From: Flavobacteriales bacterium
GTDB taxonomy: Bacteria; Bacteroidota; Bacteroidia; Flavobacteriales_F; PHOS-HE28
Length of the DNA: 64,000 nt
Reading direction: 5' to 3'
Assembly: GCA_013360395.1 (NCBI GenBank)
Contig: JABWBQ010000019.1
Location: 1-64,000 of the forward strand
Shown: positions 11,294 to 61,659 of the stretch, piece by piece
Layout: each line of letters starts with the position of its first letter
Position numbering within the stretch: the first letter of the stretch is position 1
Program-made: the position numbers and the translations under genes
The notes under the pieces: generated by a model
Databases searched by the model: none
What the model was told of the DNA's origin: nothing
The model's input: only the letters and a program-made list of their open reading frames with translations

Positions 11294-14263
11294 ATGCGTC
11301 CGACGACCTTCCTGCTGCCCTTCCTGCTGTTTCTTCCCGCCGCCCACCTGTCCGCCCAGACCTATTGGGGCATGACCAGCAACGGAGGCACGAGCGGCAA
11401 CGGCACCATTTACACCATCACCGAGTCGGGCACCTTCACCAAGAAGCATGACTTCTACCGCGTACCGGGCGGGACCCCGAAGTGTGAACTGATGCAGGCC
11501 GGGAACGGCAAGCTTTACGGGGTCACCGAGTTCGGAGGTGCCAACGGGGTGGGCATGCTGTTCGAGTTCAACCCCACGACCGGGGTGATGACCCAGCTCG
11601 CCAGCTTCAGCAACACCTTGGGCGAACAGCCGATCCGCGGCATGGTGCAGCACAGCAACGGGAAGTTGTACGGCACCTGCAGCGCCGGTGGCGCCAACGG
11701 GTTCGGCACGATCTTCGAGTTCAACATCTCCACCAACACGCTCTCCAAGCGGCACGATTTCGTGAACGCCGGCGGCAACCTCAACGGCCGCTCGCCGCGC
11801 GGGGGACTGGTGCAGGCCGCCAATGGGCAGTTGTACGGCACCACGCTGTTGGGCGGGGCCACCAACCAGGGCATCATCTTCGAGTTCCAGCCCACCGGCA
11901 ACAACTTCTTCAAGCGTGCCGACCTGACCGTGGCCAATGGCTCGAGGCCCTTTGCGGGCCTGATGCGGGCCAGCAACAACCTCCTTTACGGCACCACCAC
12001 ACAGGGCGGCACCAACGGCATGGGCGTGATCTTCAGCTTCAACACCTCCACCTTCGCCTACACGCCGCTCTTCCACCTCACCGCGGCCGATGGTTCCCTG
12101 CCCTATGCCGAGCTGATCCAGGACGGGGCGGGCGGTCTGCTGTACGGCACCACCAGCGAAGGTGGCGCCACCGACCAGGGAACGGTCTTCAGCTTCAACA
12201 TCGGCACCAACACCTACACGCGCCTGGTGGACCTTTCACCCGCGCTCGGGTACCGGCCCCTGAGCCGGCTGCGCCGTGCGGCCAGCGGCATCCTGTACGG
12301 AACCACCAGCCTGGGCGGTGCATCCAGCCTGGGTGTGCTCTTTTCCTACGACCCGGCCACCAGCACGTACACCCTGGTGAAGAACCTGAACGACATCGGG
12401 GTGAACGGTTGCTGGAGCGGGGTGTTCGAAGCGCCCACCGGCACCTTGAACGGCCTGGCAAGCACTGGTGGCAACGGCGGCAGCGGGGCGCTGTACCGGT
12501 ACGTCGTGGCCTCCAACACCCTCACCGAGGCGGTGTCCTTCGCCTTCAGTGAAGGCGCCCAGCCCAAGGGTCGTTTGGTGCGTGACGCCAACGGGCTCTT
12601 CTACGGCCTCACCTCCGCCGGTGGCGCCTACGGCAGCGGCATCTGCTTCTCGTTCGATCCCGCCACCAGCACCTTCACCCGCCTCGTGGACCTCAACAGC
12701 ACCACCGGGAACTACCCCACGGGCACGCTCACCCTGGCCAATGGCAAGTACTACGGCCTTTGCAACCAGGGCGGCAATGCCAACGAAGGCACCGTGATCG
12801 AGTTCGACCCGGTGGCCAACACGGTCACGGCCAAGGTGAGCTTCACAGGCACCACGGGCACCAGGCCGCGCTGCGGGCTCGTGCTGGCCAGCGACGGACT
12901 GCTTTACGGCAGCACCACGGCCGGCGGGGCCAACGGCCTGGGCACGCTGTTCAGCTATTCGCCCGGCGCCATGGCGGTGACCCCCTTGGTGGACTTCTCC
13001 CTCACCACCGGCACCGAACCCTTCGCCGACCTCACCCAGGCCTCCAACGGCCTGCTGTACGGCACCTTGAGCGAGGAGGGCGCCTACGACAACGGGACCC
13101 TGTTCTCCTTCGACCCGGTCACCGCCACCTTCACCAAGCTGTACGACTTCGACGGCCTGCAGGGCGGCAACCCCACCGGACGTGTGTTGCAGGCGGCCAA
13201 CGGCGTGCTCTACGGCATGTGCCGCGAGGATGGGCTCTACTTCAACGGGACCCTGTACAGCTGGGACATCGGCACGGCCACCTACACCGAACTGTACGAC
13301 ATGACAACCCCCGAAGGTGCCGCGTCCGAGAGCAACCTGGTGCAGGGCACCGACGGCAACCTGTACGGCGTATGCGTCCAGGGAGGGACGAACGACCTGG
13401 GCACCATCTTCCGGTACGTCCCGGGGAGCAACACCTTCAACGTGCTGCGCAGCCTGGCCTCGGCCGACGGCACACTGCCCTTCGATGGCCTTGTGCCGGA
13501 GAACATCCCGACCCCGCCGACCGGCGTGGCCCTGGCCATGAAGGTGTTCCTGGAGGGACCGTACAACACAGGGAGCGGCCTGATGGGCGATGCCCTCCGC
13601 CTGCAGCCCAGCTTCCCCCTCACCGAACCCTTCACCGCGCTGGGCTTCACGCACGTGGGCGGTGGCGGTGGCGAGACGATCGCCCCCGCGGTGCTCACCA
13701 CCAGCGGCAACAACGCCATCACCGATTGGGTGCTGGTGGAGCTGCGCTCCAAGAACAACAGCGCCACAGTGCTCCACACCCGCAGCGCGCTGGTGCAACG
13801 CGACGGTGACGTGGTGGACCTGGACGGCACCTCGGCCCTGACCATCAACGCGGCGGCGGACGAATACCACATCGCCGTTCGCCACCGGAACCACCTGGCC
13901 TGCATGACGCTCAACACGGTGCTTCTCGGGTCGACCCCCACCGCCGTGGACCTCACCAACGGCTCGGTGCCCACCTACGGCAGCAATGCGCAGAAGTTGA
14001 ACGGCAGCGTGCGCCTGCTGTGGGCCGGTAACGTGGTGCGCGATGCACTGATCAAGTACGCCGGTGGCTCCAACGACCGCGACCCCATCCTGGTGCGCAT
14101 CGGTGGATCGGTGCCCACGGCCACCACCACCGGGTATTGGAGCGAGGACGTGAACATGGACGCCACGGTGAAATACGCCGGTGGCTCCAACGATCGCGAT
14201 CCCATCCTGGTGAACGTGGGCGGTTCGATCCCCACCGGCACCCGCAGCCAACAGCTGCCCTGA
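11294..14263 (+). CDS. Secreted GloVer tandem-repeat protein
   Basis: A 989-residue secreted protein with signal peptide MRPTTFLLPFLLFLPAAHLSA. It is followed by about 14 imperfect repeats of the type LYGTTSEGGATDQGTVFSF, the GloVer repeat of TIGR03803, which likely builds a beta-propeller. The C-terminal 250 residues differ: a segment starting MKVFLEGPYNTGSG and two copies of KYAGGSNDRDPILV (14053-14094 and 14170-14211), the second preceded by DVNMD. This resembles Asp-rich calcium-binding modules at the C-termini of other Flavobacteriales surface proteins. No classical T9SS type A domain is seen. A TATCTTGG box lies at 11264-11271. Confidence 0.8.
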   Translation: MRPTTFLLPFLLFLPAAHLSAQTYWGMTSNGGTSGNGTIYTITESGTFTKKHDFYRVPGGTPKCELMQAGNGKLYGVTEFGGANGVGMLFEFNPTTGVMTQLASFSNTLGEQPIRGMVQHSNGKLYGTCSAGGANGFGTIFEFNISTNTLSKRHDFVNAGGNLNGRSPRGGLVQAANGQLYGTTLLGGATNQGIIFEFQPTGNNFFKRADLTVANGSRPFAGLMRASNNLLYGTTTQGGTNGMGVIFSFNTSTFAYTPLFHLTAADGSLPYAELIQDGAGGLLYGTTSEGGATDQGTVFSFNIGTNTYTRLVDLSPALGYRPLSRLRRAASGILYGTTSLGGASSLGVLFSYDPATSTYTLVKNLNDIGVNGCWSGVFEAPTGTLNGLASTGGNGGSGALYRYVVASNTLTEAVSFAFSEGAQPKGRLVRDANGLFYGLTSAGGAYGSGICFSFDPATSTFTRLVDLNSTTGNYPTGTLTLANGKYYGLCNQGGNANEGTVIEFDPVANTVTAKVSFTGTTGTRPRCGLVLASDGLLYGSTTAGGANGLGTLFSYSPGAMAVTPLVDFSLTTGTEPFADLTQASNGLLYGTLSEEGAYDNGTLFSFDPVTATFTKLYDFDGLQGGNPTGRVLQAANGVLYGMCREDGLYFNGTLYSWDIGTATYTELYDMTTPEGAASESNLVQGTDGNLYGVCVQGGTNDLGTIFRYVPGSNTFNVLRSLASADGTLPFDGLVPENIPTPPTGVALAMKVFLEGPYNTGSGLMGDALRLQPSFPLTEPFTALGFTHVGGGGGETIAPAVLTTSGNNAITDWVLVELRSKNNSATVLHTRSALVQRDGDVVDLDGTSALTINAAADEYHIAVRHRNHLACMTLNTVLLGSTPTAVDLTNGSVPTYGSNAQKLNGSVRLLWAGNVVRDALIKYAGGSNDRDPILVRIGGSVPTATTTGYWSEDVNMDATVKYAGGSNDRDPILVNVGGSIPTGTRSQQLP

Positions 14264-28933: not shown

Positions 28934-29848
28934 ATGGCTGTTCCCGATTTCCAAAGCCTCATGTTGCCCATGCTCACCGTACTGGCGGACGGTAGCGAAC
29001 GGTCATTGAAAGATACCGGTGAAGCTCTGTCGCAGATCATGGGGCTGTCCAAAGATGACCTGGCAGAGATCCTCCCCAGCGGAGGTCAATCCCGGTTCAG
29101 GAACAGGGTGGCATGGGCGAGCATCTATTTGCGTCGGGCCGGCCTCCTCACCTCTCCCAGACGGGGAGTTCTTGCCATCACCACTCGTGGGCTCGAAGTA
29201 CTCAATGAAGATCTCGAGCGGATCGATGTTGCATACTTGAAACGGTATCCGGAGTTCTTGGAATTCCGGTCCACAAAACGCGAAAGCAGTGCCACCCAAG
29301 GCTCGAACGAGGATAATACCGGACGCACTCCCGAGGAACTGATCGATACCGGCTTTGAGCAACTGCACGAGGCGCTCGGCCAAGAGCTTCTCGCGAAAGT
29401 TCATGGGCTCAGTTGGATGGACTTCGAACACCTCGTGGTGCAACTGCTCGTACGCATGGGCTACGGCGGTTCCGTGAAGGACGCCGGTCGCGCACTCGCC
29501 AAAGGCAACGATGAAGGCATCGACGGCACCATCAAGGAGGATAAGCTGGGGTTGGACGTGATCTACATCCAGGCCAAGAAATGGCAGACAGGCAACACCG
29601 TTGGGCGGCCGGAGATCCAGAAGTTCGTGGGCGCACTTGCCGGGCAAGGTGCCAAGAAGGGCATCTTCATCACCACCTCCACTTTCAGCAAGGAGGCGCG
29701 TGAGTACCAGCCGCGCAACGAGACCAAGATCGCACTCATCGACGGCGAGGAACTCACCCAGCTCATGATGGACCACGACCTCGGCGTCACCACCCAGCGC
29801 ACCTACGCCGTCAAGCGCATCGACAGCGACTTCTTCGGGGAGGAGTGA
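28934..29848 (+). CDS. mrr: Mrr-like restriction endonuclease
   Basis: A 304-residue protein of the Mrr family, which cuts DNA carrying foreign methylation. The N-terminal Mrr_N winged helix (about 1-90) ends in SPRRGVLAITTRGLEVL. The C-terminal nuclease domain (about 155-290) has the PD-(D/E)xK-type site: Asp197 in GNDEGIDG and Gln213-Lys215 in YIQAKKW. No methyltransferase is next to it, as usual for Mrr. Codon use is less GC-rich than the neighbours', suggesting recent transfer. Its TGA stop shares TGATCA with the stop of the displaced dnaE fragment on the other strand. Confidence 0.88.
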   Translation: MAVPDFQSLMLPMLTVLADGSERSLKDTGEALSQIMGLSKDDLAEILPSGGQSRFRNRVAWASIYLRRAGLLTSPRRGVLAITTRGLEVLNEDLERIDVAYLKRYPEFLEFRSTKRESSATQGSNEDNTGRTPEELIDTGFEQLHEALGQELLAKVHGLSWMDFEHLVVQLLVRMGYGGSVKDAGRALAKGNDEGIDGTIKEDKLGLDVIYIQAKKWQTGNTVGRPEIQKFVGALAGQGAKKGIFITTSTFSKEAREYQPRNETKIALIDGEELTQLMMDHDLGVTTQRTYAVKRIDSDFFGEE

Positions 29849-29978
29849 TCACTTCTCCCCATACCTCGGATCCGCCTTCCACGGTAGCTTCTCGAAACCT
29901 TCGGTACGCAGGGCGCAATGCCCGAACTCCTCTTCCACCACGCCGGTGAAGCGGTACACGCCGCGCCCGCGGAAGGGA
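29849..29978 (-). pseudogene. Displaced 3' end of the DnaE-type polymerase gene
   Basis: This 130-bp fragment encodes the last 42 codons of the DnaE-type polymerase, including the stop, and has no start. It belongs to a 132-bp direct repeat: 29847-29978 matches 30551-30682 with five differences. Three are synonymous third-position changes and two fall in one codon (Arg to Gly). That pattern suggests the two copies diverged as functional genes in different lineages rather than arising by recent local duplication. The toxin-antitoxin pair lies between the copies. Confidence 0.88.
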
Positions 29979-30550: not shown

Positions 30551-30682
30551 GATCACTTCTCCCCATACCTCGGATCGGCCTTCCACGGCAGCTTCTCGAA
30601 GCGTTCGGTGCGCAGGGCGCAATGCCCGAACTCCTCTTCCACCACGCCGGTGAAGCGGTACACGCCGCGCCCGCGGAAGGGA
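30551..30682 (-). repeat. 132-bp direct repeat, intact dnaE side
   Basis: This copy forms the true 3' end of the DnaE-type gene. Its partner is 29847-29978 (127 of 132 bases identical, the last 73 without a difference). The two copies are 704 bp apart and bound the toxin-antitoxin segment. Confidence 0.9.
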
Positions 30683-33600
30683 TGGCGCGCGGCCACCTGC
30701 GGGAACTGGGTGCTGTCCCAGAAGTCCCCGGCCGGGTCTATGAAGGAGCCGAAGCTCATGTACTTGCCCGTTTGCGTGGTGGTGGTCTTCACATGGATCA
30801 TGTAGCCGAGCATCTGCACGCGCTGGCCGATGTGGCGGGGCATGTCGCGCTTGAGGATGAAGGGAGGTAAGGAGGTGAGTGGCGAATGGGAGTTGGTGAA
30901 TGGAGCAGACGGGGCATCGCTCTTCCATTCACCATTCACCAACCGCCATTCACCGGTATCCACCAACGAGAACGGATCGCACAGCGGGAAGCCCAGCAGT
31001 TCCAGCTCGTCGTAGGCGTCGGCCAGCGGGTAGTGGTGCAGCTCGGGCAGCTTGGGCTCCTCCACCCGGGCGATGAAGAGGTCGCCGGTGCTGCTCACGG
31101 CGGCGGGGCGGTGCAGCAGGGTGGCGTCCCACAGCAGTTGCGGCTTGCTCTTGCCGGTGAAGCGCAGGGCGCCCGCGCGGATGAGGATGCGCGCCTGCTC
31201 CAGGCCCAGCGGAACGCGCTTCAGCAGGTCCTGCAGGTCGGTGTAAGGCCCGTTGCGGTGGCGCTCGTGCAGGATGAGCTGCGCTGCTTCGCCCTCGAGG
31301 CTTTTGATGTTGGAGAGGCCGAGGAAGATGCGGGGAGGAGGTGAATGGCGAATAGGAGTTGGCGAATGGTGATCTCCTCCATTCGCCATTCGCCATTGAC
31401 CATTCACCTGCCGGTCTTTTACCAAGGAGCACAGCTCTTCACTCCGGTTCACGCACGGCGCCTCGATCACCGCCCCGGCGCGTTTTGCTTCGTGCAGGTA
31501 AAACTCCAAGCGGTAGAAGCCGCCGAAGTTGTTGGCCACGCCCACCAGGAACTCCAGCGGATGGTGCGCCTTCAGGTAGAGGCTCTGGTAGCTCTCCACA
31601 GCGTAGCTGGCGCTGTGGCCCTTGGCGAAACTGAAGCTGGCGAAGCTCTGGATCTGGCGCCACACCTCCTCGGCCTCGCCCGGCGGGTAACCGAAGGCCT
31701 TGCAGTTGGCGAAGAACTTCTGCTCCACCACCTTGAACTCCGGCCGGTCGCGGTAGCGCAGGTTCATGCCGCGCCGCACCGTGTCGGATTCTTCCAGGTC
31801 CAGCCCGCCGTAGAGGTGCACCACCTTGATCACGTCCTCCTGGTACACCATCACGCCGTAGGTCTCGGGCATGATCTCCAGCAGGCGCTTGGGCGCGTTC
31901 TTGCGGCGCTCGGGGTCGTTGTGGCGCAGCAGGTACTCGCGCATCATGCCGCTCTCGGCCACGCCGGGGCGGATGATGCTGCTCGCCGCCACCAGCCCGA
32001 GGTAATCGTCCACCTTCAGCTTCTTCAGCAGCATGCGCATGGCGGGGCTCTCCACGTAGAAGCAGCCGATGGTATCGCCCTTGCGCAAAAGCTCCTTGAT
32101 CGCGGGGTCCTGCTTGAAGCGCGGGATGTCGTGGATATCAATGCGAGGAGAGGTGAATGGCGAATGGTCATTGGCGACTGGTGCTGCGCGTTTCCATTCG
32201 CTATTCGCCATTGACCATTCACCCCGGCTTTGTCCGTTCACCAGCTCCACCGCATCCCGTATATGCCCCAGCCCGCGTTGGCTCAGCAGGTCGAATTTGT
32301 GCAGGCCCATGTCCTCGCATTCCAGCATGCTGATCTGCGTGACGGGGAAGCCCTTCGGCGGACGGAACAGCGCGGCGAAATGCGTCACGGGCTGCTCCGT
32401 GATCACGATCCCGCCGGCGTGGATGCCCAAATGGTGCGGCATGCCGATGATGCGCTTGCCGTGCGCGATCACCGCCTTCGCCACCTTGTCCAACTCGTTG
32501 CTCTTCGCGAGGGCGCTGGGCTTTCCGCGCGCGAAGTAGCCGTGGTCGCCTTCCGAAAGCGCGTCGATCTCCGCCGGCGGCAGCCCCACGGCCTTGCCCA
32601 GCTCGCGCACGGCGCCTCGCCATTGGAAGGTGGTGTAGGTGGCGATCTGCGCCGCGTGGATGCCGCCCGCACGGCCGTCCGCGCTGTTGTACTTGTTGAA
32701 CACGTACCGGTACACCTCGTCGCGGTCCTTCCAGCTGAAGTCGATGTCGAAATCGGGCGGTTTCTTGCGTGCGGGGTTGATGAAGCGCTCGAAGTAGAGG
32801 TCCAGCTCCATGGGGTCCACATCGGTGATGCGCAGGCAATAGGCCACCAGGCTGTTGGCGCCGCTGCCGCGCCCCACGTGGAAGAAGCCCCGGCTGCGCG
32901 CATGGTTGACGATGTCCTGGTTGATGAGGAAGTAGCTGATGAAGCCCATGCGCTCGATCACGTCCAGCTCGTGGTGCATGCGGGCCAGCACCTTGGGCGT
33001 CACCTCCGGGTAGCGGTAGCGCAGGCCCTCGCGCGTGTCGCGGTGCAGCTTCTCGCGATCGGCGCGCAGGTCGTTGGTGAAGGCCACGCGCGTCTTGTCG
33101 CTGCCGTCGAAGGCGATGGTGCATTGTTCCAGCAGCCGCTCCGCGTTGTCCACGAGCTGCGGCCACTCGCGGTAGATGCGGCGTACTTCTTCCTCACTGC
33201 GGAAGCACTCATCCTGCCCCGCCAGCTCCTCCTTCGGCAGCATGCTCACCACGGTGTTCGCGGCCACGGTGCGCAGCAGGCGGTGGGTGTTCCAATCGCT
33301 CTTGCTGCGGAAGGTCACCGGCATCAGCGCCACCAGGTCGTTCACCCTGCGCGACCACGGCGAGAAGGGCAGGCGCGTGAGATCCCCGGGCTTGATGCCC
33401 ACACGCTCGTTCGGGCGCAGTTGCTGGGGTGCGTGCGCAAAGGGGTGGATGATGTACACGTCCTCCATCTCCGGTGCCCGCTCCGGGAAGGGTTCATCAT
33501 CCAGGAGATGCCCGCTCAGCAATTCATTCAGCCGCTGGAAGCCGTTGTTGTTCTTCGCGATGCCGATGTACAACAGCCGTGCGCCCTGGCGGAATTCGAT

Positions 33601-33783
33601 CCCCGCCACAGGCCTGACACCATAACGCGGCGCGTCGCGCACGAAGTCGGGAATGCCCGCCGAGCAATGGATGTCCGTCAGCGCCAAGGTGCGCACACTC
33701 GCCCTGGCCGCTTCTTCCAGCAGCACCTCGGGCTTCATCACGCCGTATTTGAAGCTGAACCAGCTGTGGCCGTTGAGGAACAT
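30553..33783 (-). CDS. DnaE-type DNA polymerase III alpha subunit (accessory, with repeat-derived inserts)
   Basis: A 1076-residue C-family polymerase. The N-terminal PHP domain begins LNGHSWFSFKYG and LALTDIHCSAG. The palm has the catalytic aspartates in PPDFDIDF (342-349) and probably Asp498 in HKFDLLSQRG; the C-terminus has an OB-like region. At this length it resembles the error-prone DnaE2/ImuC class more than the replicative enzyme, and it is near dinB and a LexA-like repressor. I chose ATG 33783. Three stretches are foreign to the family: about 516-548, 792-816 and 943-972, rich in GEW, NGEW and NSHSP, encoded by palindromic repeats. All keep the frame. Its 3' end is duplicated at 29847-29978. 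Confidence 0.88.
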   Translation of the reverse strand: MFLNGHSWFSFKYGVMKPEVLLEEAARASVRTLALTDIHCSAGIPDFVRDAPRYGVRPVAGIEFRQGARLLYIGIAKNNNGFQRLNELLSGHLLDDEPFPERAPEMEDVYIIHPFAHAPQQLRPNERVGIKPGDLTRLPFSPWSRRVNDLVALMPVTFRSKSDWNTHRLLRTVAANTVVSMLPKEELAGQDECFRSEEEVRRIYREWPQLVDNAERLLEQCTIAFDGSDKTRVAFTNDLRADREKLHRDTREGLRYRYPEVTPKVLARMHHELDVIERMGFISYFLINQDIVNHARSRGFFHVGRGSGANSLVAYCLRITDVDPMELDLYFERFINPARKKPPDFDIDFSWKDRDEVYRYVFNKYNSADGRAGGIHAAQIATYTTFQWRGAVRELGKAVGLPPAEIDALSEGDHGYFARGKPSALAKSNELDKVAKAVIAHGKRIIGMPHHLGIHAGGIVITEQPVTHFAALFRPPKGFPVTQISMLECEDMGLHKFDLLSQRGLGHIRDAVELVNGQSRGEWSMANSEWKRAAPVANDHSPFTSPRIDIHDIPRFKQDPAIKELLRKGDTIGCFYVESPAMRMLLKKLKVDDYLGLVAASSIIRPGVAESGMMREYLLRHNDPERRKNAPKRLLEIMPETYGVMVYQEDVIKVVHLYGGLDLEESDTVRRGMNLRYRDRPEFKVVEQKFFANCKAFGYPPGEAEEVWRQIQSFASFSFAKGHSASYAVESYQSLYLKAHHPLEFLVGVANNFGGFYRLEFYLHEAKRAGAVIEAPCVNRSEELCSLVKDRQVNGQWRMANGGDHHSPTPIRHSPPPRIFLGLSNIKSLEGEAAQLILHERHRNGPYTDLQDLLKRVPLGLEQARILIRAGALRFTGKSKPQLLWDATLLHRPAAVSSTGDLFIARVEEPKLPELHHYPLADAYDELELLGFPLCDPFSLVDTGEWRLVNGEWKSDAPSAPFTNSHSPLTSLPPFILKRDMPRHIGQRVQMLGYMIHVKTTTTQTGKYMSFGSFIDPAGDFWDSTQFPQVAARHPFRGRGVYRFTGVVEEEFGHCALRTERFEKLPWKADPRYGEK
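30874..30954 (-). repeat. In-frame palindromic element 1 in the polymerase gene
   Basis: Two 30-nt arms (30874-30903 and 30925-30954), built from GGTGAATGG-like units, form an imperfect inverted repeat around 21 nt. Total length is 81 bp (27 codons). In the gene's frame it reads as GEWRLVNGEWK, then NSHSPLTS, with no stop. It sits just before the C-terminal OB-like region. Confidence 0.85.
31340..31408 (-). repeat. In-frame palindromic element 2 in the polymerase gene
   Basis: Two 30-nt arms (31340-31369 and 31379-31408) around a 9-nt spacer give 69 bp (23 codons). The arms differ from those of elements 1 and 3 at only a few positions each. The translated segment is VNGQWRMANGG then IRHSPPP. 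It is placed between ELCSLV and IFLGLSNIK, normally a turn between strands in DnaE. Confidence 0.85.
32152..32223 (-). repeat. In-frame palindromic element 3 in the polymerase gene
   Basis: Two 30-nt arms (32152-32181 and 32194-32223) around a 12-nt spacer give 72 bp (24 codons). The translation is GEWSMANSEWK then NDHSPFTS. It lies between AVELVNG and IDIHDIPRFK, the loop in DnaE proteins after the third catalytic aspartate region. Confidence 0.85.
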
Positions 33784-33913
33784 GATCGCCGTGTATCCCG
33801 TCGATCCGGCGACGGATAATATACCAACGAACCATTCACCCCAGCGCGGCAACGTGCCCCCCCTTCTGCCCGTCACCCTCCACGCAGCGATCATTCACCC
33901 CAAACGCTCCACC

Positions 33914-36194: not shown

Positions 36195-36261
36195 CTACGC
36201 CTCCTGCAGCTTCCTGGCCGCGCGCTCGCGCTCGTTCTCGTCGAGGAGGATCTTGCGGATG
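36195..36261 (-). pseudogene. Displaced 3' end of typA
   Basis: A 67-bp fragment matches the last 67 bp of typA (37647-37713) with three differences, in the same orientation, 1452 bp away. It encodes the last 22 codons and the stop. All three differences change the amino acid (Lys to Glu, Lys to Arg, Val to Ala). Between fragment and intact gene lie the Crp/Fnr and DUF4386 genes. Confidence 0.85.
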
Positions 36262-37646: not shown

Positions 37647-39464
37647 CTACACCTCCTGCAGCTTCTTGGCCGCGCGCTTGCGCTCGTTCTCGTCGAGGAG
37701 GATCTTGCGGATGCGCAGGTTCTTGGGGGTCACCTCCAGGTATTCGTCCTCGGCGATGTACTCCATGCACTCCTCGAGGCTGAACTTCACGGCCGGTGCG
37801 ATGCTGGTCTTCTCATCGCTGCCGCTGGCGCGCATGTTGGTGAGCTTCTTCACGCGGATCACGTTCACACCGAGCTCTTCGCCGGGTTTGGGGCTCTCGC
37901 CGATCACCTGGCCGGCATAGACCTCCTCGCCCGGCTCGATGAAGAACTTGCCCCGGTCCTGCAGCTTGTCGATGGCATAGGCGATGGCCGTGCCCGTCTC
38001 GGCGCTGACGATGCAGCCCGGGCGCGGTGTGGCGATCTGGCCCTTGAACGGCTCGTAGCCTTTGAAGCGGTGGGCGATGATGGCCTCGCCCTCGGTGGCG
38101 GTGAGCAGCACGTTGCGCAGACCGATGATGCCGCGTGCGGGGATGCTGAACTCCAGCACCGTGCGGTCGCTCTTTTGCTCGATGTTGAGGATCTCACCCT
38201 TGCGCCGGGTCACATGGTCGATCACGCGGCTGCTGAACTGCTCGGGCACCTGCACGGTGAGCATCTCGATGGGCTCGTGCCGCTGGCCGTCCACCTCCTT
38301 GTACAACACCTGCGGCTGGCCCAGCTGGAACTCGTAGCCCTCGCGGCGCATGGTCTCCACCAGGATGCTCAGGTGCAGGATGCCGCGCCCGAACACCAGC
38401 AGCCGGTCGGGGCTGTCGGTCTCCTGGAGCCGCATCGCCAGGTTCTTCTCGATCTCCTTGAAGAGGCGGTCGCGCACGTGGCGGCTGGTGACGAACTGCC
38501 CTTCACGTCCGAAGAAGGGCGAGTTGTTGATGGTGAAGAGCATGCTCATCGTGGGCTCGTCCACCGTGAAGCGCGGCAGGCCCTCGGGGTTCTCGGCGTC
38601 GGCGATGGTGTCCCCGATGTCGAACCCTTCCAGGCCCATCACGGCCACGATCTCACCGCAACCCACCTCCTGCTTGACCTTCTCCTTGCCCAGGCCCTCG
38701 AACACCATCAGTTCCTTCACCTGTCCCTTCTGGCGGCCACCGTCGTTCTTCACCAGGGTGACCTGCTGGCCCGGTCGGATGGTGCCGCGCGAAACCCGGC
38801 CCACGGCGATGCGGCCCTGGAAACTGCTGTAGTCCAACGAGGTGATGCGCATCTGCAGGGTGCCCTCCACCTGCTTCGGGGCCGGCACCTTCTCCAGGAT
38901 CACGTCCAACAGGTGGCTCACGTCCGTGGTGGGTGTCTTCCAGTCGGGTCCCATCCAGCCGCCCTTGCCGCTGCCGTACACCACGGGGAAATCGAGCTGG
39001 TCCTCGTTGGCGTCGAGGGCGAACATGAGCTCGAAGACGGCCTCATGCACCTCCTCGGGGGTGCAGTTGGGCTTGTCCACTTTGTTGATCACCACCACGG
39101 GCTTCAGCCCCAGCTCGATCGCCTTGCCCAGCACGAACCGCGTCTGTGGCATGGGGCCCTCGAAGGCATCCACCAGCAGGATCACCCCGTCGGCCATGTT
39201 CAGCACACGCTCCACCTCGCCGCCGAAGTCGCTGTGGCCCGGCGTGTCGATGATGTTGATCTTGGTGCCCTTGTACCGCACGCTCACGTTCTTGCTGAGG
39301 ATGGTGATGCCGCGCTCCCGCTCCAGGTCGTTGTTGTCCAACAGCAGGTCCTTCACCTCCTCGTTCACCCGGAAGAGCTGGCATTGGTGGAGGATCTTGT
39401 CCACCAACGTGGTCTTCCCGTGGTCCACGTGGGCGATGATGGCGATGTTGCGCAGGTCGGTCAT
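37647..39464 (-). CDS. typA: Translational GTPase TypA/BipA
   Basis: A 605-residue ribosome-binding GTPase. The G1 loop AHVDHGKTT and G3 DTPGHSDFGGEVERV are intact, and VVINKVDKPNC is G4. The length and EF-G-like domains match TypA/BipA, which helps ribosome assembly and growth at low temperature or under stress. I chose the ATG at 39464. A TACCTTTG box lies 50 nt upstream, so unlike many genes here the message has a leader. The last 67 bp are duplicated at 36195-36261. The gene ends KRAAKKLQEV, so its C-terminus is complete. Confidence 0.95.
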   Translation of the reverse strand: MTDLRNIAIIAHVDHGKTTLVDKILHQCQLFRVNEEVKDLLLDNNDLERERGITILSKNVSVRYKGTKINIIDTPGHSDFGGEVERVLNMADGVILLVDAFEGPMPQTRFVLGKAIELGLKPVVVINKVDKPNCTPEEVHEAVFELMFALDANEDQLDFPVVYGSGKGGWMGPDWKTPTTDVSHLLDVILEKVPAPKQVEGTLQMRITSLDYSSFQGRIAVGRVSRGTIRPGQQVTLVKNDGGRQKGQVKELMVFEGLGKEKVKQEVGCGEIVAVMGLEGFDIGDTIADAENPEGLPRFTVDEPTMSMLFTINNSPFFGREGQFVTSRHVRDRLFKEIEKNLAMRLQETDSPDRLLVFGRGILHLSILVETMRREGYEFQLGQPQVLYKEVDGQRHEPIEMLTVQVPEQFSSRVIDHVTRRKGEILNIEQKSDRTVLEFSIPARGIIGLRNVLLTATEGEAIIAHRFKGYEPFKGQIATPRPGCIVSAETGTAIAYAIDKLQDRGKFFIEPGEEVYAGQVIGESPKPGEELGVNVIRVKKLTNMRASGSDEKTSIAPAVKFSLEECMEYIAEDEYLEVTPKNLRIRKILLDENERKRAAKKLQEV

Positions 39465-57501: not shown

Positions 57502-60500
57502 GTGAGGACCTGTCGTTACCTGCTTCCCGTCCTCCTGGCGGCCCTGTCCATCCTGGGCCATGGCCCGGCCCGGGCGGGCACTCCCGAGCTGCAACGCGCC
57601 GGGGACCGCCCCGTCTGGTCGAGCGACCTGGCAGGCCATGGTATGCTGGGGCGGGTCAGCGCGCACGGCTTCACGGTGAAAGGCGCCGACGGCTCCTGGG
57701 TGCAGACCCTGGCCGTGCAGCGCATCGGTCGTATCGGACAGGCCCGGGCCTGGTCGCCCACAGCCGTGAGCGACAGGAACGGTGACCTGCGGTGGCGGCA
57801 ACAGGACGTGGTGGTGCAATACCTCGCCGCCGAGGAGGGGTTGCGCCAGAATTTCCTCCTCGCCGAGCGCCCTGCCGGGAACCGGGAGCTGCGGATCGAA
57901 CTGGGCACCAACGGCGATCTGATCCCTGTGGCGGTCACCCCGGTCGAGGTCCGCTTCATGGACCATCAAGGAACCCACCGGTTCAGCTACCACGACCTGC
58001 GCTGCTGGGATGCCACGGGCCGTGCCCTGAAGGCATCGCTCAGCGTGGCGCACACCCCCCGGGCCGCCATCCACATCACCGTGGACGACAGCCAGGCCGT
58101 TTACCCGGTCACCATCGACCCGGTGAGCGCGAGCCCGGTCCTGGTGCTCTCCTCGCCCATCACCGGTGCGGACTACGGCACGGCGGTCGCCACGGCCGGT
58201 GACCTGAACGGCGACGGGTACAGCGACCTGGTGATCGGGGCGCCCATGGCCACCAACGGCCAGACGAACGAAGGGGTCGTTTATGTGCACTACGGGTCCA
58301 ACACCGGGATCACCGCCGCTCCGAGCGTGGTGCTGGAGGTGAACCAACAAGGCGCCCAGTTCGGTTGTGCGGCCAGCACCGCCGGCGATGTGAACGGCGA
58401 CGGATACAGCGACCTCATCGTCGGCGCCAGGACCTGGGAGGACGATGTGGCGAACCAGCTTTCGGAAGGGGCCGCGTTCGTGTTCCACGGCTCGGCCACC
58501 GGGGTCTCCACCGTGCCGGACCTCACCCTGCAGACGAACCAGGCCGCCGACAACTTCGGCTCCAATGTGGCCTGCCTCGGGGACATCAACAACGACGGAT
58601 ACAGCGATGTGGGTGTCGGGGCCTACCTGAGCAGCTACCCCTCCTACCAGGAAGGTGCGGTGTTCGTGTACCTCGGCAGCGCCACCGGACTGAACCCCGT
58701 GCTGCGGCACCGTTTGGAACGCCACCAGGGAGGCGCGCACTTCGGACGCAGCCTGGCCTGTGCCGGGGACATCAATGGCGACGGCTACAGCGACGTGGTG
58801 ATCGGTGCCTCCCAGTGGACCGTTGCCCCCGGCTTTGACCAGGGCGCCTCGTTCATCTATCACGGAGGGCCAACGGCCCTGGGTGCCGGAGCCAATCCAG
58901 CGCCCGACCTCACCCTGTTCGGCACGCCCACGGTGAACGACAACAACTTCGGATGGAGCGTGGCCTGTGCCGGCGATGTGAACGGTGACGGGTACAGTGA
59001 CGTGGCCATCGGTGCCTACCGGGACCAGATCGGCACGCAGACCGGAGAAGGCGTCGTGCGCGTGTTCCACGGCAGTGCCGCCGGGTTGAACCCCACGGCC
59101 GCCGTCGCCTTGGAAAGCAACCAGAACAACGCCTGGATGGGGCGCTGGGTCAGCACGGCCGGGGATGTCAATGGCGACGGGTACGGCGATCTGCTCGTCG
59201 GTATCCCGTACTACGCCAACCCGCAGGTGCAGGAAGGCCAGGTGAGGCTCTATTTCGGGTCGGCCACCGGCATCCTGCCCACGGCGATCTTCAATTACGA
59301 ACTGAACACGGCCGGGGCCTTCCTGGGGGAATGCGTGTCCACCGCCGGCGACATCAACGCCGACGGCTTCTCGGATTTCATCTTCGGTGCTTTCAAATAC
59401 GGCTTCGGTGGTGGGGCCGCGGTGTACCTGGGCGGCACTTATTCCATGCAACTGACCTCCACCACCACGGGCACGGGTGGTGCCGCCGGCGCCGCCCTGG
59501 GTGCCGCCGTGGGCAATGCGGGCGATGTGAACGGTGATGGTTACGCCGACGCCCTGGTCGGTGTCCCCGACGGAAGCAACGGGCAGGCCGGCGAGGGGCT
59601 TGTGCAATTCCGGCTCGGCGGGCCCGCGGGCCTGCCGGCCGCACCCACGAGCACCCTGGAAGCCAACATCCCCGGGGCCCGTTTCGGTGCAAGCGTCTGC
59701 ACGGCCGGCGATGTCAACGGCGACGGCTATGCCGATGTCATCGTGGGCGCCCCGCTCTCCGGCGGGACCGGCAGGGCCACCATCCATCATGGCGGCCCCG
59801 GTGGGCTTGCCCTGGCACCGGCCACCACCCTCAACGGCACGGCAGGGTCCGAGTTCGGTGCGAGCGTCAGCGCCGCCGGCGACATCAATACCGACGGTTA
59901 TGCCGACGTGCTCGTCGGAGCACCGGGCACCTCGCAGACCTACGTGTACCTGGGCTCTCCGGCAGGCATTCCCGTGGCACCCCATGTGGTGCTCGCTGAA
60001 CCTCCTGCCGCCAACCGCTTCGGCCATGCCGTTTGCACCGCCGGCGATGTGAACGGCGACGGCTTTTCGGACATCATCATCGGGGCACGTGACCTGAGCA
60101 ACGGCCAGGCCGGCGAGGGGGCCGCCTTCGTGTACCATGGTTCGGCCACGGGCGTGGTGCTGCCTTATGCGCGCCGGTTGGAGATCGATCAGGCCGGTGC
60201 ACGCTTCGGCGTCAGTGTGGCCGGTGCGGGCGACGTGAACGGCGATGGATTCTTCGATGTCGTCGTCGGGGCCGACCGCTGGGAGTCCGGACAAACGGAC
60301 GAGGGCGGCGCATTCGTGTACCACGGCTCGGCCGCGGGCGTCGGTGCCGCACCGAACACCACGCTGCAACGCAACATCGCCAACGGTTTCATGGGTGCCA
60401 GCGTGGCCGAGGCCGGCGACGTGAACGGCAACGGCTATGCCGACATAGCCGTGGGCAGCCCCGGCTACGAAAGCGCCGTGGCCCAAGCCGATGAGGGGGC

Positions 60501-61659
60501 GTTGTACGTCTTCCAGGGCACCCCGGCAGGCATCAATGGCGCGCTGTTGGACATCATCGAGGCCAACGTGGCCGGCGAACAGCTGGGCAGCGCCGTGAGC
60601 GGTGGCGGCGATGCCGACGGCGACGGCTATTCGGAAGTGCTCGTCGGTGCACCGTTCGCCTCGCCCACCTTCATCAACGAAGGCCGCTGGCATTGGCACC
60701 GAGGTGACCGGGGCTATGCGCTGGACCGCTACTCGCGGCAGTACATGGCCGACCTGGTCTCTCCGCTCGCCACCAACTGCATGGACTTCGGCGTGCCCGA
60801 CTATTTCGGTATCGGTCATCGCGCCCGCAGTCCCATGCACCGGTGCGACGGGCGCCTTCGCTGGGAGGTGGTGTTCGAGGGGCAGGCCTTCTCCGGAGCC
60901 CCCATCACCAACAGCCTAGGCAGCACCGGGCAGAGCGCCGGATGGACCGACCTTGGCGTGGGCGGCACCGAGATCAAGGAGCTGATCTACAAGACCGCCG
61001 GCCACCTGCGCTACAAGTGGCGGGTGCGCGTGGAGTACGAACTGGCCAAGCTCTTCGACGGACAACGCTTCAGCCGCTGGTTCTATGGCTACGCCTCGGG
61101 CATGGGCGACATCGGGGTGCTGCCCGTGGAGCTCGTCAGCTTCACCGGATGGCCCGAGGAACGGGTGAACCACCTCTCGTGGAGCACGGCGAGCGAACAC
61201 CACACCGCCCGTTTCCTCATCGACCGTGGCACCTCCCTGGAACTCCTCCTCCCCATCGGCAGCGTGGACGCCGCCGGCGAAAGCCAGAGCACGCGGACTT
61301 ATACATTCGACGACGCTTCACCGCCGGACGGGCTCGCGTACTACCGGCTGCGGACAGAGGATTCCGATGGAAGCATACAGGTGGGTCCGGTGGTCCCGAT
61401 CGACCGGAAGGACCTGGGACCGGCCATGGTGGTGTCGCCCCGGCCATCGACCGGCCTGGTGCAGGTGCGTTGGAACTTCCCGGCCGTGTCCATGGAACTG
61501 GTGGACATGGCAGGCCGGCCGCAGATACGCCGGGCCGTCGCACCCGACGTCCGTTCGCTCACCATCGACCTCGGTGCCTTCCCCCTCGGGGTGTACATCC
61601 TCACCCTGCGCGATGGCGCCGGGCACCCGACCGAACGGACGACAGTGGTGAAGGAATAG
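57502..61659 (+). CDS. Giant FG-GAP repeat protein with T9SS sorting domain
   Basis: A 1385-residue secreted protein. I start it at GTG 57502 because this gives a good signal peptide (RTCRYLLPVLLAALSILGHGPARA) just after a promoter. About 14 integrin-type FG-GAP repeats follow, each with a calcium-binding core like GDVNGDGYSDLIVGA (the last is GDADGDGYSEVLVGAP), making up beta-propeller blades. After them comes a non-repeat region with VLPVELVSFTGWPEERVNHLSW, common in Bacteroidota surface proteins, and a T9SS type A domain ending TERTTVVKE. It probably acts as a surface adhesin or matrix protein; ligand unknown. Confidence 0.9.
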   Translation: MRTCRYLLPVLLAALSILGHGPARAGTPELQRAGDRPVWSSDLAGHGMLGRVSAHGFTVKGADGSWVQTLAVQRIGRIGQARAWSPTAVSDRNGDLRWRQQDVVVQYLAAEEGLRQNFLLAERPAGNRELRIELGTNGDLIPVAVTPVEVRFMDHQGTHRFSYHDLRCWDATGRALKASLSVAHTPRAAIHITVDDSQAVYPVTIDPVSASPVLVLSSPITGADYGTAVATAGDLNGDGYSDLVIGAPMATNGQTNEGVVYVHYGSNTGITAAPSVVLEVNQQGAQFGCAASTAGDVNGDGYSDLIVGARTWEDDVANQLSEGAAFVFHGSATGVSTVPDLTLQTNQAADNFGSNVACLGDINNDGYSDVGVGAYLSSYPSYQEGAVFVYLGSATGLNPVLRHRLERHQGGAHFGRSLACAGDINGDGYSDVVIGASQWTVAPGFDQGASFIYHGGPTALGAGANPAPDLTLFGTPTVNDNNFGWSVACAGDVNGDGYSDVAIGAYRDQIGTQTGEGVVRVFHGSAAGLNPTAAVALESNQNNAWMGRWVSTAGDVNGDGYGDLLVGIPYYANPQVQEGQVRLYFGSATGILPTAIFNYELNTAGAFLGECVSTAGDINADGFSDFIFGAFKYGFGGGAAVYLGGTYSMQLTSTTTGTGGAAGAALGAAVGNAGDVNGDGYADALVGVPDGSNGQAGEGLVQFRLGGPAGLPAAPTSTLEANIPGARFGASVCTAGDVNGDGYADVIVGAPLSGGTGRATIHHGGPGGLALAPATTLNGTAGSEFGASVSAAGDINTDGYADVLVGAPGTSQTYVYLGSPAGIPVAPHVVLAEPPAANRFGHAVCTAGDVNGDGFSDIIIGARDLSNGQAGEGAAFVYHGSATGVVLPYARRLEIDQAGARFGVSVAGAGDVNGDGFFDVVVGADRWESGQTDEGGAFVYHGSAAGVGAAPNTTLQRNIANGFMGASVAEAGDVNGNGYADIAVGSPGYESAVAQADEGALYVFQGTPAGINGALLDIIEANVAGEQLGSAVSGGGDADGDGYSEVLVGAPFASPTFINEGRWHWHRGDRGYALDRYSRQYMADLVSPLATNCMDFGVPDYFGIGHRARSPMHRCDGRLRWEVVFEGQAFSGAPITNSLGSTGQSAGWTDLGVGGTEIKELIYKTAGHLRYKWRVRVEYELAKLFDGQRFSRWFYGYASGMGDIGVLPVELVSFTGWPEERVNHLSWSTASEHHTARFLIDRGTSLELLLPIGSVDAAGESQSTRTYTFDDASPPDGLAYYRLRTEDSDGSIQVGPVVPIDRKDLGPAMVVSPRPSTGLVQVRWNFPAVSMELVDMAGRPQIRRAVAPDVRSLTIDLGAFPLGVYILTLRDGAGHPTERTTVVKE

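Follow-up and report, generated by a model that had tools for sequence, protein, structure and literature searches.

Hairpin-forming repeats in frame within loops of a DnaE-type polymerase and in other conserved genes in a genus of Flavobacteriales

The window analysed here, a stretch of 64,000 nucleotides from a Flavobacteriales bacterium, carries on its reverse strand an uninterrupted ORF for a DnaE-type DNA polymerase III alpha protein that contains three hairpin-forming repeats, designated elements A, B and C (Table 1). The product is 1113 amino acids (aa) long when counted from the first ATG and 1077 aa when counted from Met37 (position 33786), which is the likelier start of the polymerase gene. 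A profile search of the ORF returned the Pfam domains DNA_pol3_alpha, finger, HHH_6 and PHP, and its product scored above the cut-off of model TIGR00594 and below that of the error-prone model PRK05672. The source genome has two DnaE proteins. The window gene encodes the second, and the replicative enzyme (DnaE1), which scores above the cut-off of PRK05673, is encoded on contig C83. Residues Asp345, Asp347 and Asp499 (1077-aa numbering) are unchanged in 45 homologues and align with the catalytic motifs of E. coli alpha. In this alignment the PDFDIDF and KFD segments of the window polymerase match, and thus the catalytic aspartates are conserved.

The surroundings of the gene include other repeated sequences. 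The final 132 bp of the polymerase gene, including its stop codon, are present twice at 96% identity (29847-29978 and 30551-30682), and the DNA separating the copies encodes a small antitoxin/toxin-like pair on the reverse strand, the toxin being ParE/RelE-like as judged by eye. A second cassette bordered by a duplicated gene end comprises a Crp/Fnr-like regulator and a membrane protein, enclosed by two copies of the 3' end of a BipA/TypA-like GTPase gene (36195-36261 and 37647-37713; 67 bp, 96% identity). Two further genes have long internal tandem repeats, with periods of approximately 153 and 186 nt (11533-13453 and 58183-60650).

Table 1. Coordinates of the polymerase gene, its three repeat elements and their arms (window positions; residues in 1113-aa numbering)
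Feature	Position	Strand	Remarks
DnaE-type DNA polymerase III alpha gene	30553..33894	(-)	uninterrupted ORF carrying all three elements
Element A, 72 bp GGYGAAT hairpin	32152..32223	(-)	reads GEWSMANSEWKRAAPVANDHSPFT; residues 558-581 of 1113
Element A 5' arm	32194..32223	(-)	heptads GGTGAAT GGTCAAT GGCGAAT AGCGAAT, then GG
Element A 3' arm	32152..32181	(-)	inverted-repeat search
Element B, 69 bp hairpin, other phase	31340..31408	(-)	reads QVNGQWRMANGGDHHSPTPIRHSP; residues ~829-852 of 1113
Element B 5' arm	31379..31408	(-)	inverted-repeat search
Element B 3' arm	31340..31369	(-)	inverted-repeat search
Element C, 81 bp hairpin	30874..30954	(-)	reads GEWRLVNGEWKSDAPSAPFTNSHSPLT; residues 981-1007 of 1113
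Element C 5' arm	30925..30954	(-)	inverted-repeat search
Element C 3' arm	30874..30903	(-)	inverted-repeat search

Each element consists of two 30-nt arms, 77% complementary to each other, that enclose a spacer of 12 (A), 9 (B) or 21 nt (C). The arms are runs of 7-nt units (GGTGAAT, GGCGAAT, GGTCAAT and variants) closed by GG. A, B and C are the three longest close-spaced inverted repeats within the window, and their hairpin energies fall far below those of dinucleotide shuffles (z of -4.5 to -6.2 per element for single-stranded DNA, and -5.8 to -7.5 for RNA). A chance origin is ruled out by this top rank, by the shuffle energies and by the number of genomic copies relative to a control, given below. 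Because seven is not a multiple of three, a heptad array runs through all three reading phases, and the variants GGCGAAT and GGTCAAT escape the TGA that GGTGAAT makes in one phase, as can be read from the sequence. Elements A and C are read as GGT-GAA-TGG (GEWSMANSEW..., GEWRLVNGEW...), and element B is read one phase off (VNGQWRMANGG...HSPTPIRHSP).

A first-pass annotation of this DNA had placed the elements at the positions listed, with lengths of 81, 69 and 72 bp and spacers of 21, 9 and 12 nt, and all of these values were reproduced. It had also called the 30-nt arms near-identical, which is correct for arm length and too strong for a sequence identity of 81-97% between copies. Its claim of a shared, stop-free frame holds insofar as all three elements are in frame with the gene and free of stops, and fails with respect to a common phase.

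These sequences belong to a dispersed family. A 16-nt arm motif, allowing up to two mismatches, has 36 matches in the source genome and none for a reversed control; our copy counts for this genome derive from such pattern searches, which may miss diverged copies. This search for the arm, which had been proposed as a check, also revealed copies in frame in other genes, namely those for the replicative DnaE (C83), Mfd (two copies, C5), methylmalonyl-CoA mutase (C91) and the C-terminus of an adenylate cyclase (C127). One of the Mfd copies is directly preceded by a different repeat, CACAGAGGCACAGAGGG. Those on contigs C37, C51 and C69 are found at the starts of genes or where no gene is recognisable, as judged from ORF context rather than annotation. 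Genomes G008 and G010 have in-frame copies in DnaE1, IcmF, the mutase and Mfd, and G008 has them in two cyclases as well. Other repeat families are found in frame in G010 genes for ArgRS, LeuRS, a ligase-associated DEXH helicase and a sodium/solute symporter (L250, L258, L248 and L238).

The multiple-of-three lengths noted in the first pass are true of the three window elements and not of the family. Copies classed as intergenic or gene-edge range from 70 to 98 bp with every remainder modulo three, and Mfd copies measure 76 and 91 bp; an intrinsic multiple-of-three length is therefore rejected. Frame must be kept solely by the net insertion within a gene, not by element length. Among sampled family members in the closed genome G010, 9 are intergenic, 5 are genic and 5 are at gene edges, a split made by a codon-score gene caller on fetched regions that were chosen for holding a match. 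Genic copies have 1.56 open frames of three, versus 1.0 for the others, a small difference that we do not use as evidence. The motif count per genome ranges from 0 to 62 among 29 genomes of the genus, and in other genera of the class exact matches are confined to 7 of 144 genomes, with one or two matches each. Within its class, the GGYGAAT family is thus nearly restricted to the genus.

Individual sites differ in how the element has diverged. The Mfd site-1 element (L161:4034-4109, L204, L237:2999-3074, L202) is 95-99% identical among the source genome, G008 and G010, and the flanking Mfd DNA is 69-90% identical, a likeness that would fit either slower change or exchange among species. The element at the DnaE1 site has diverged about as much as its flanks, or more.

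We compared the three polymerase loops, termed sites A, B and C after the elements they hold in the window gene, among DnaE homologues fetched from the genus, whose members are uncultured Flavobacteriales, and from GTDB genomes, with loop lengths measured between fixed anchors. The close GTDB homologues come from Flavobacteriales metagenome-assembled genomes, several of them probably from activated sludge to judge from isolate names. Within the genus, loop lengths at sites A, B and C span 15-161, 22-82 and 20-239 aa, versus 16-19, 22-24 and 16-22 aa in 79 homologues from outside it, with two exceptions at site C (L094, 36 aa; L119, 50 aa). A milder variable site is located at residues 402-412. 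When the 1076-residue protein of the first-pass annotation is set against homologues of relatives, the loops are short where the DNA repeat is absent, and no homologue lacking the DNA repeat was found to carry the same peptide.

A recognisable repeat family occupies at least one of the three loops in 19 of the 22 genus genomes, and it is usually a different family in each species. The families, which were defined in this analysis from the insert sequences themselves, include GGYGAAT, GTTGTC heptads, GATCAGA octads, the GTCGACCCAxxGGGTCGAC palindrome, GGCCAxxGGC, GAGTGGC, AGAATGT, GACTTGT, GCGAAGACGCGAAG and single other repeats; the regular expressions used to assign them gave a spurious GGYGAAT label at site A of G017 and a doubtful one at site B of G013. 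All four families that were counted are dispersed genome-wide. Some inserts combine two or three families (G011 B, G018 A, G002 B), some are long tandem expansions (G003 A, L086 C), and in others no repeat was recognised (G010 A-C, G003 B and C, G007 C). The tract at site C of L086 (L086:4001-7924) comprises 239 residues, mostly a tandem GLTRRREGAKGAE repeat, plus a run of unknown bases.

Closely related species usually differ at these loops. The source genome and G008 are 86% identical in core residues and have no family in common at A, B or C, and G004 and G006 have site A in common (94% DNA identity) and not B or C. The sites are empty or short in some genus members (G022, G015). The single DnaE1 site is found in filled, empty and intermediate states among relatives, and the two Mfd sites likewise differ in occupancy as those of the second DnaE do. 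The copy number of a family is weakly related to its presence in the polymerase (one-sided Mann-Whitney p of approximately 0.03 for two of four families, uncorrected, the other two not significant). The same loop can be filled by different families in different species.

Recurrent use of the same sites could also arise if a cellular mobilising activity that places hairpins repeatedly struck a local DNA target such as AAG|GTGAA. At their left junctions the copies in Mfd, DnaE1, cyclase and mutase genes often show AAG|GYGAA, and in G010 5 of 17 positions have different families within 2 kb of each other, versus 0.3 expected from a simulation that merged positions lying within 3 kb and spread them uniformly, ignoring gene density. 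However, clustering of this kind would also follow if both families survived only in tolerant DNA, for example in long stretches between genes. Moreover, the same sites hold families whose ends are entirely different, and polymerase sites A-C do not share the AAG|GYGAA junction. We consider sequence-directed insertion unlikely, and infer that sites are shared due to selection rather than choice of target sequence.

Somewhat less probable still is that the inserts are kept for a function, either as disordered linkers that tune enzymes or as 7-nt repeats that switch the frame on and off by slippage. Several of the proteins that carry inserts act in replication or repair (DnaE1, the second DnaE, Mfd and the ligase-associated helicase), and between species the Mfd site-1 element is better preserved than the gene around it. 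Yet metabolic enzymes and tRNA synthetases have been struck as well, neither the sequence nor the length of the insert peptides is conserved between species, some genus members do without inserts at these sites, and the element in DnaE1 shows no comparable conservation.

An AlphaFold2 model of the polymerase, built from 45 sequences, has a mean pLDDT of 84.5 and matches the solved DnaE structures of M. tuberculosis (7pu7, TM 0.70) and E. coli (2hnh). In 1077-aa numbering, pLDDT falls below 50 in four segments, three of which correspond to elements A (520-545), B (794-813) and C (948-971), the fourth being 894-904. The first-pass proposal that the insertions fall at turns is supported by this correspondence. 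Apart from a single short helix in A, the element segments are modelled with no helix or strand. The third catalytic Asp is followed by a helix and then by site A, which corresponds to the E. coli loop around KRRAKNGEPP; site B is located between two short strands. The pLDDT profile thus supports a predicted placement of the elements in unstructured segments. Low confidence over the elements suggests disorder, and is also expected where the alignment has no homologous sequence.

In 51 inserts of at least 15 aa at the three sites (6309 nt), there are no stop codons in the frame of the gene, and 52 and 106 in the other two frames; mononucleotide shuffles of the inserts (500 rounds) contain 71 stops on average and 50 at minimum. 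Part of the zero count follows from the method, as ORFs were delimited from stop to stop. Nevertheless, these ORFs cross both conserved flanks in nearly all genomes with contigs complete there, and therefore the sites are truly open, which speaks for the inserts being translated. Folding z-scores below -2 were obtained for 31 of 49 inserts versus 2 of 49 core windows from the same genes. Although each element forms a stable RNA hairpin, it is most improbable that the inserts are removed or skipped as mini-introns or translational bypassing hairpins, given that they are always in frame, lack in-frame stops and are far shorter than a self-splicing intron. Translation of the inserts into protein is the reading that we favour from their sequences.

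With these observations in mind, we propose that the elements are protein-coding palindromic repeats, that is, non-autonomous hairpin elements that sit in frame in tolerant loops and are replaced by unrelated families over species time, and we assign this interpretation a probability of roughly 0.8. The GGYGAAT family would be one such set of short, non-autonomous, dispersed hairpins of approximately 70-90 bp, located mostly between genes. Repeats would arise or spread and land mainly in spacers, and those within genes would be lost unless the frame is kept, no stop is introduced and the site is a tolerant loop. Permissive sites in the genus would include three loops in the second DnaE, one in the replicative DnaE, two in Mfd and loops of several metabolic enzymes. 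An insert at such a site may be read as some 20-80 extra, probably disordered, residues, and it is through disorder that inserts are presumably tolerated. An occupied loop may accept further repeats, giving compound or tandem inserts, and over species time an unrelated family may take the place of another at the same loop.

Clues to how the repeats move are sparse. No empty allele of the same strain was found, and no target-site duplication of the kind known from MITEs, which also have terminal repeats matching a transposase, was recognised at the Mfd or DnaE1 sites, where junctions are inexact and cannot be fixed because the flanks differ too. The source genome has one IS200-like TnpA (C116) and a RAYT-like ORF (C108), the latter flanked by its own repeats; both labels come from reading the sequence, and the second hit scores below the Pfam cut-off. 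A pattern search of this genome found no GGYGAAT copies on either contig, and we found no link that would make RAYT or TnpA the mobiliser of the elements. The RAYT-like ORF (L243, G000:C108) lies amid many copies of another repeat, which reads SRPPAATLYPP or GAECPPWIPGASA in one frame. A bolder idea, which we regard as possible and rather doubtful, is that in this genus a novel mobilising or template-switching process targets numerous unrelated hairpin repeats together and keeps swapping them at existing hairpins, core genes included. Fixed loops in the replicative polymerase, in the second DnaE and in Mfd would then evolve as one insert after another is replaced by whichever repeat is present in the genome.

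If the inserts are protein-coding palindromic repeats, DNA of parasitic appearance has turned into a rapidly evolving component of core proteins in this genus. With inserts that differ among many species at a shared set of loops, the genus constitutes a natural insertion-scanning experiment, from which DnaE loops that tolerate 20-200 extra residues can be identified and the turnover of in-gene repeats can be measured. Annotators should be cautious and treat such segments as repeats, not as conserved domains.

The closest known systems are the palindromic elements of intracellular alphaproteobacteria. According to reviews, Rickettsia palindromic elements (RPEs) lie in frame in genes, and a guanylate kinase carrying one is translated and active (PMC2229807, PMC10969869); in-frame inserts resembling Wolbachia palindromic elements (WPEs) occur in the Wolbachia recombination and replication genes addA, addB and priA (PMC4224334). 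The first-pass annotation had drawn the comparison with Rickettsia, and it is borne out by the dispersed copies, the in-frame copies in other conserved genes, the short loops in repeat-free homologues and the low-confidence loops. As described, both systems share with ours short hairpins of several families, in frame and free of stops in unrelated conserved genes, and present also in spacers. By analogy, the elements reported here would work like the Rickettsia and Wolbachia coding palindromes. In contrast to the elements reported here, RPEs are approximately 105-150 bp long and, as described, are not built from heptads, and our host is a Bacteroidota genus rather than an intracellular alphaproteobacterium. 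Palindromic coding sequences in housekeeping genes of Methanocaldococcus jannaschii, as cited in PMC2996958, are alike in kind, a likeness drawn from that citation. PARCELs (PMC2996958) are also translated palindromic DNA, although they are tandem amphipathic repeats associated with membrane proteins and genes of unknown function, whereas here single inserts are found in core enzymes.

REP/REPIN-RAYT systems are similar in having dispersed intergenic palindromes, and the source genome, as noted, has RAYT-like and IS200-like ORFs. A GTAG/CGTC-type tag is given as a feature of REPs in PMC3733652. At the foot of the palindromes examined here this tag is absent, and the element ends read GGTGAATGG...CCATTCACC. 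Heptanucleotide units also form the tandem repeats known in cyanobacteria as STRR. The TAACTGA repeats of Beggiatoaceae have a 7-nt unit as well (PMC4679880). Those are direct tandem arrays and mainly intergenic, whereas the heptads here form inverted arms, many of them in frame within genes.

Our literature searches, which covered mainly journals open without subscription, found no report of such elements in Bacteroidota, and the literature found places coding palindromes in intracellular alphaproteobacteria and one archaeon, to which another phylum can now be added. That a replicative polymerase, Mfd and tRNA synthetases are affected here implies that the process is not bound to the reduced genomes of endosymbionts. 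Relative to the known systems, the new features are this other phylum, the heptad-built arms, the many unrelated families and the way in which shared loops are refilled from species to species. This last feature also sets these inserts apart from RPEs and WPEs, and for one site to be refilled by unrelated families seems to be new.
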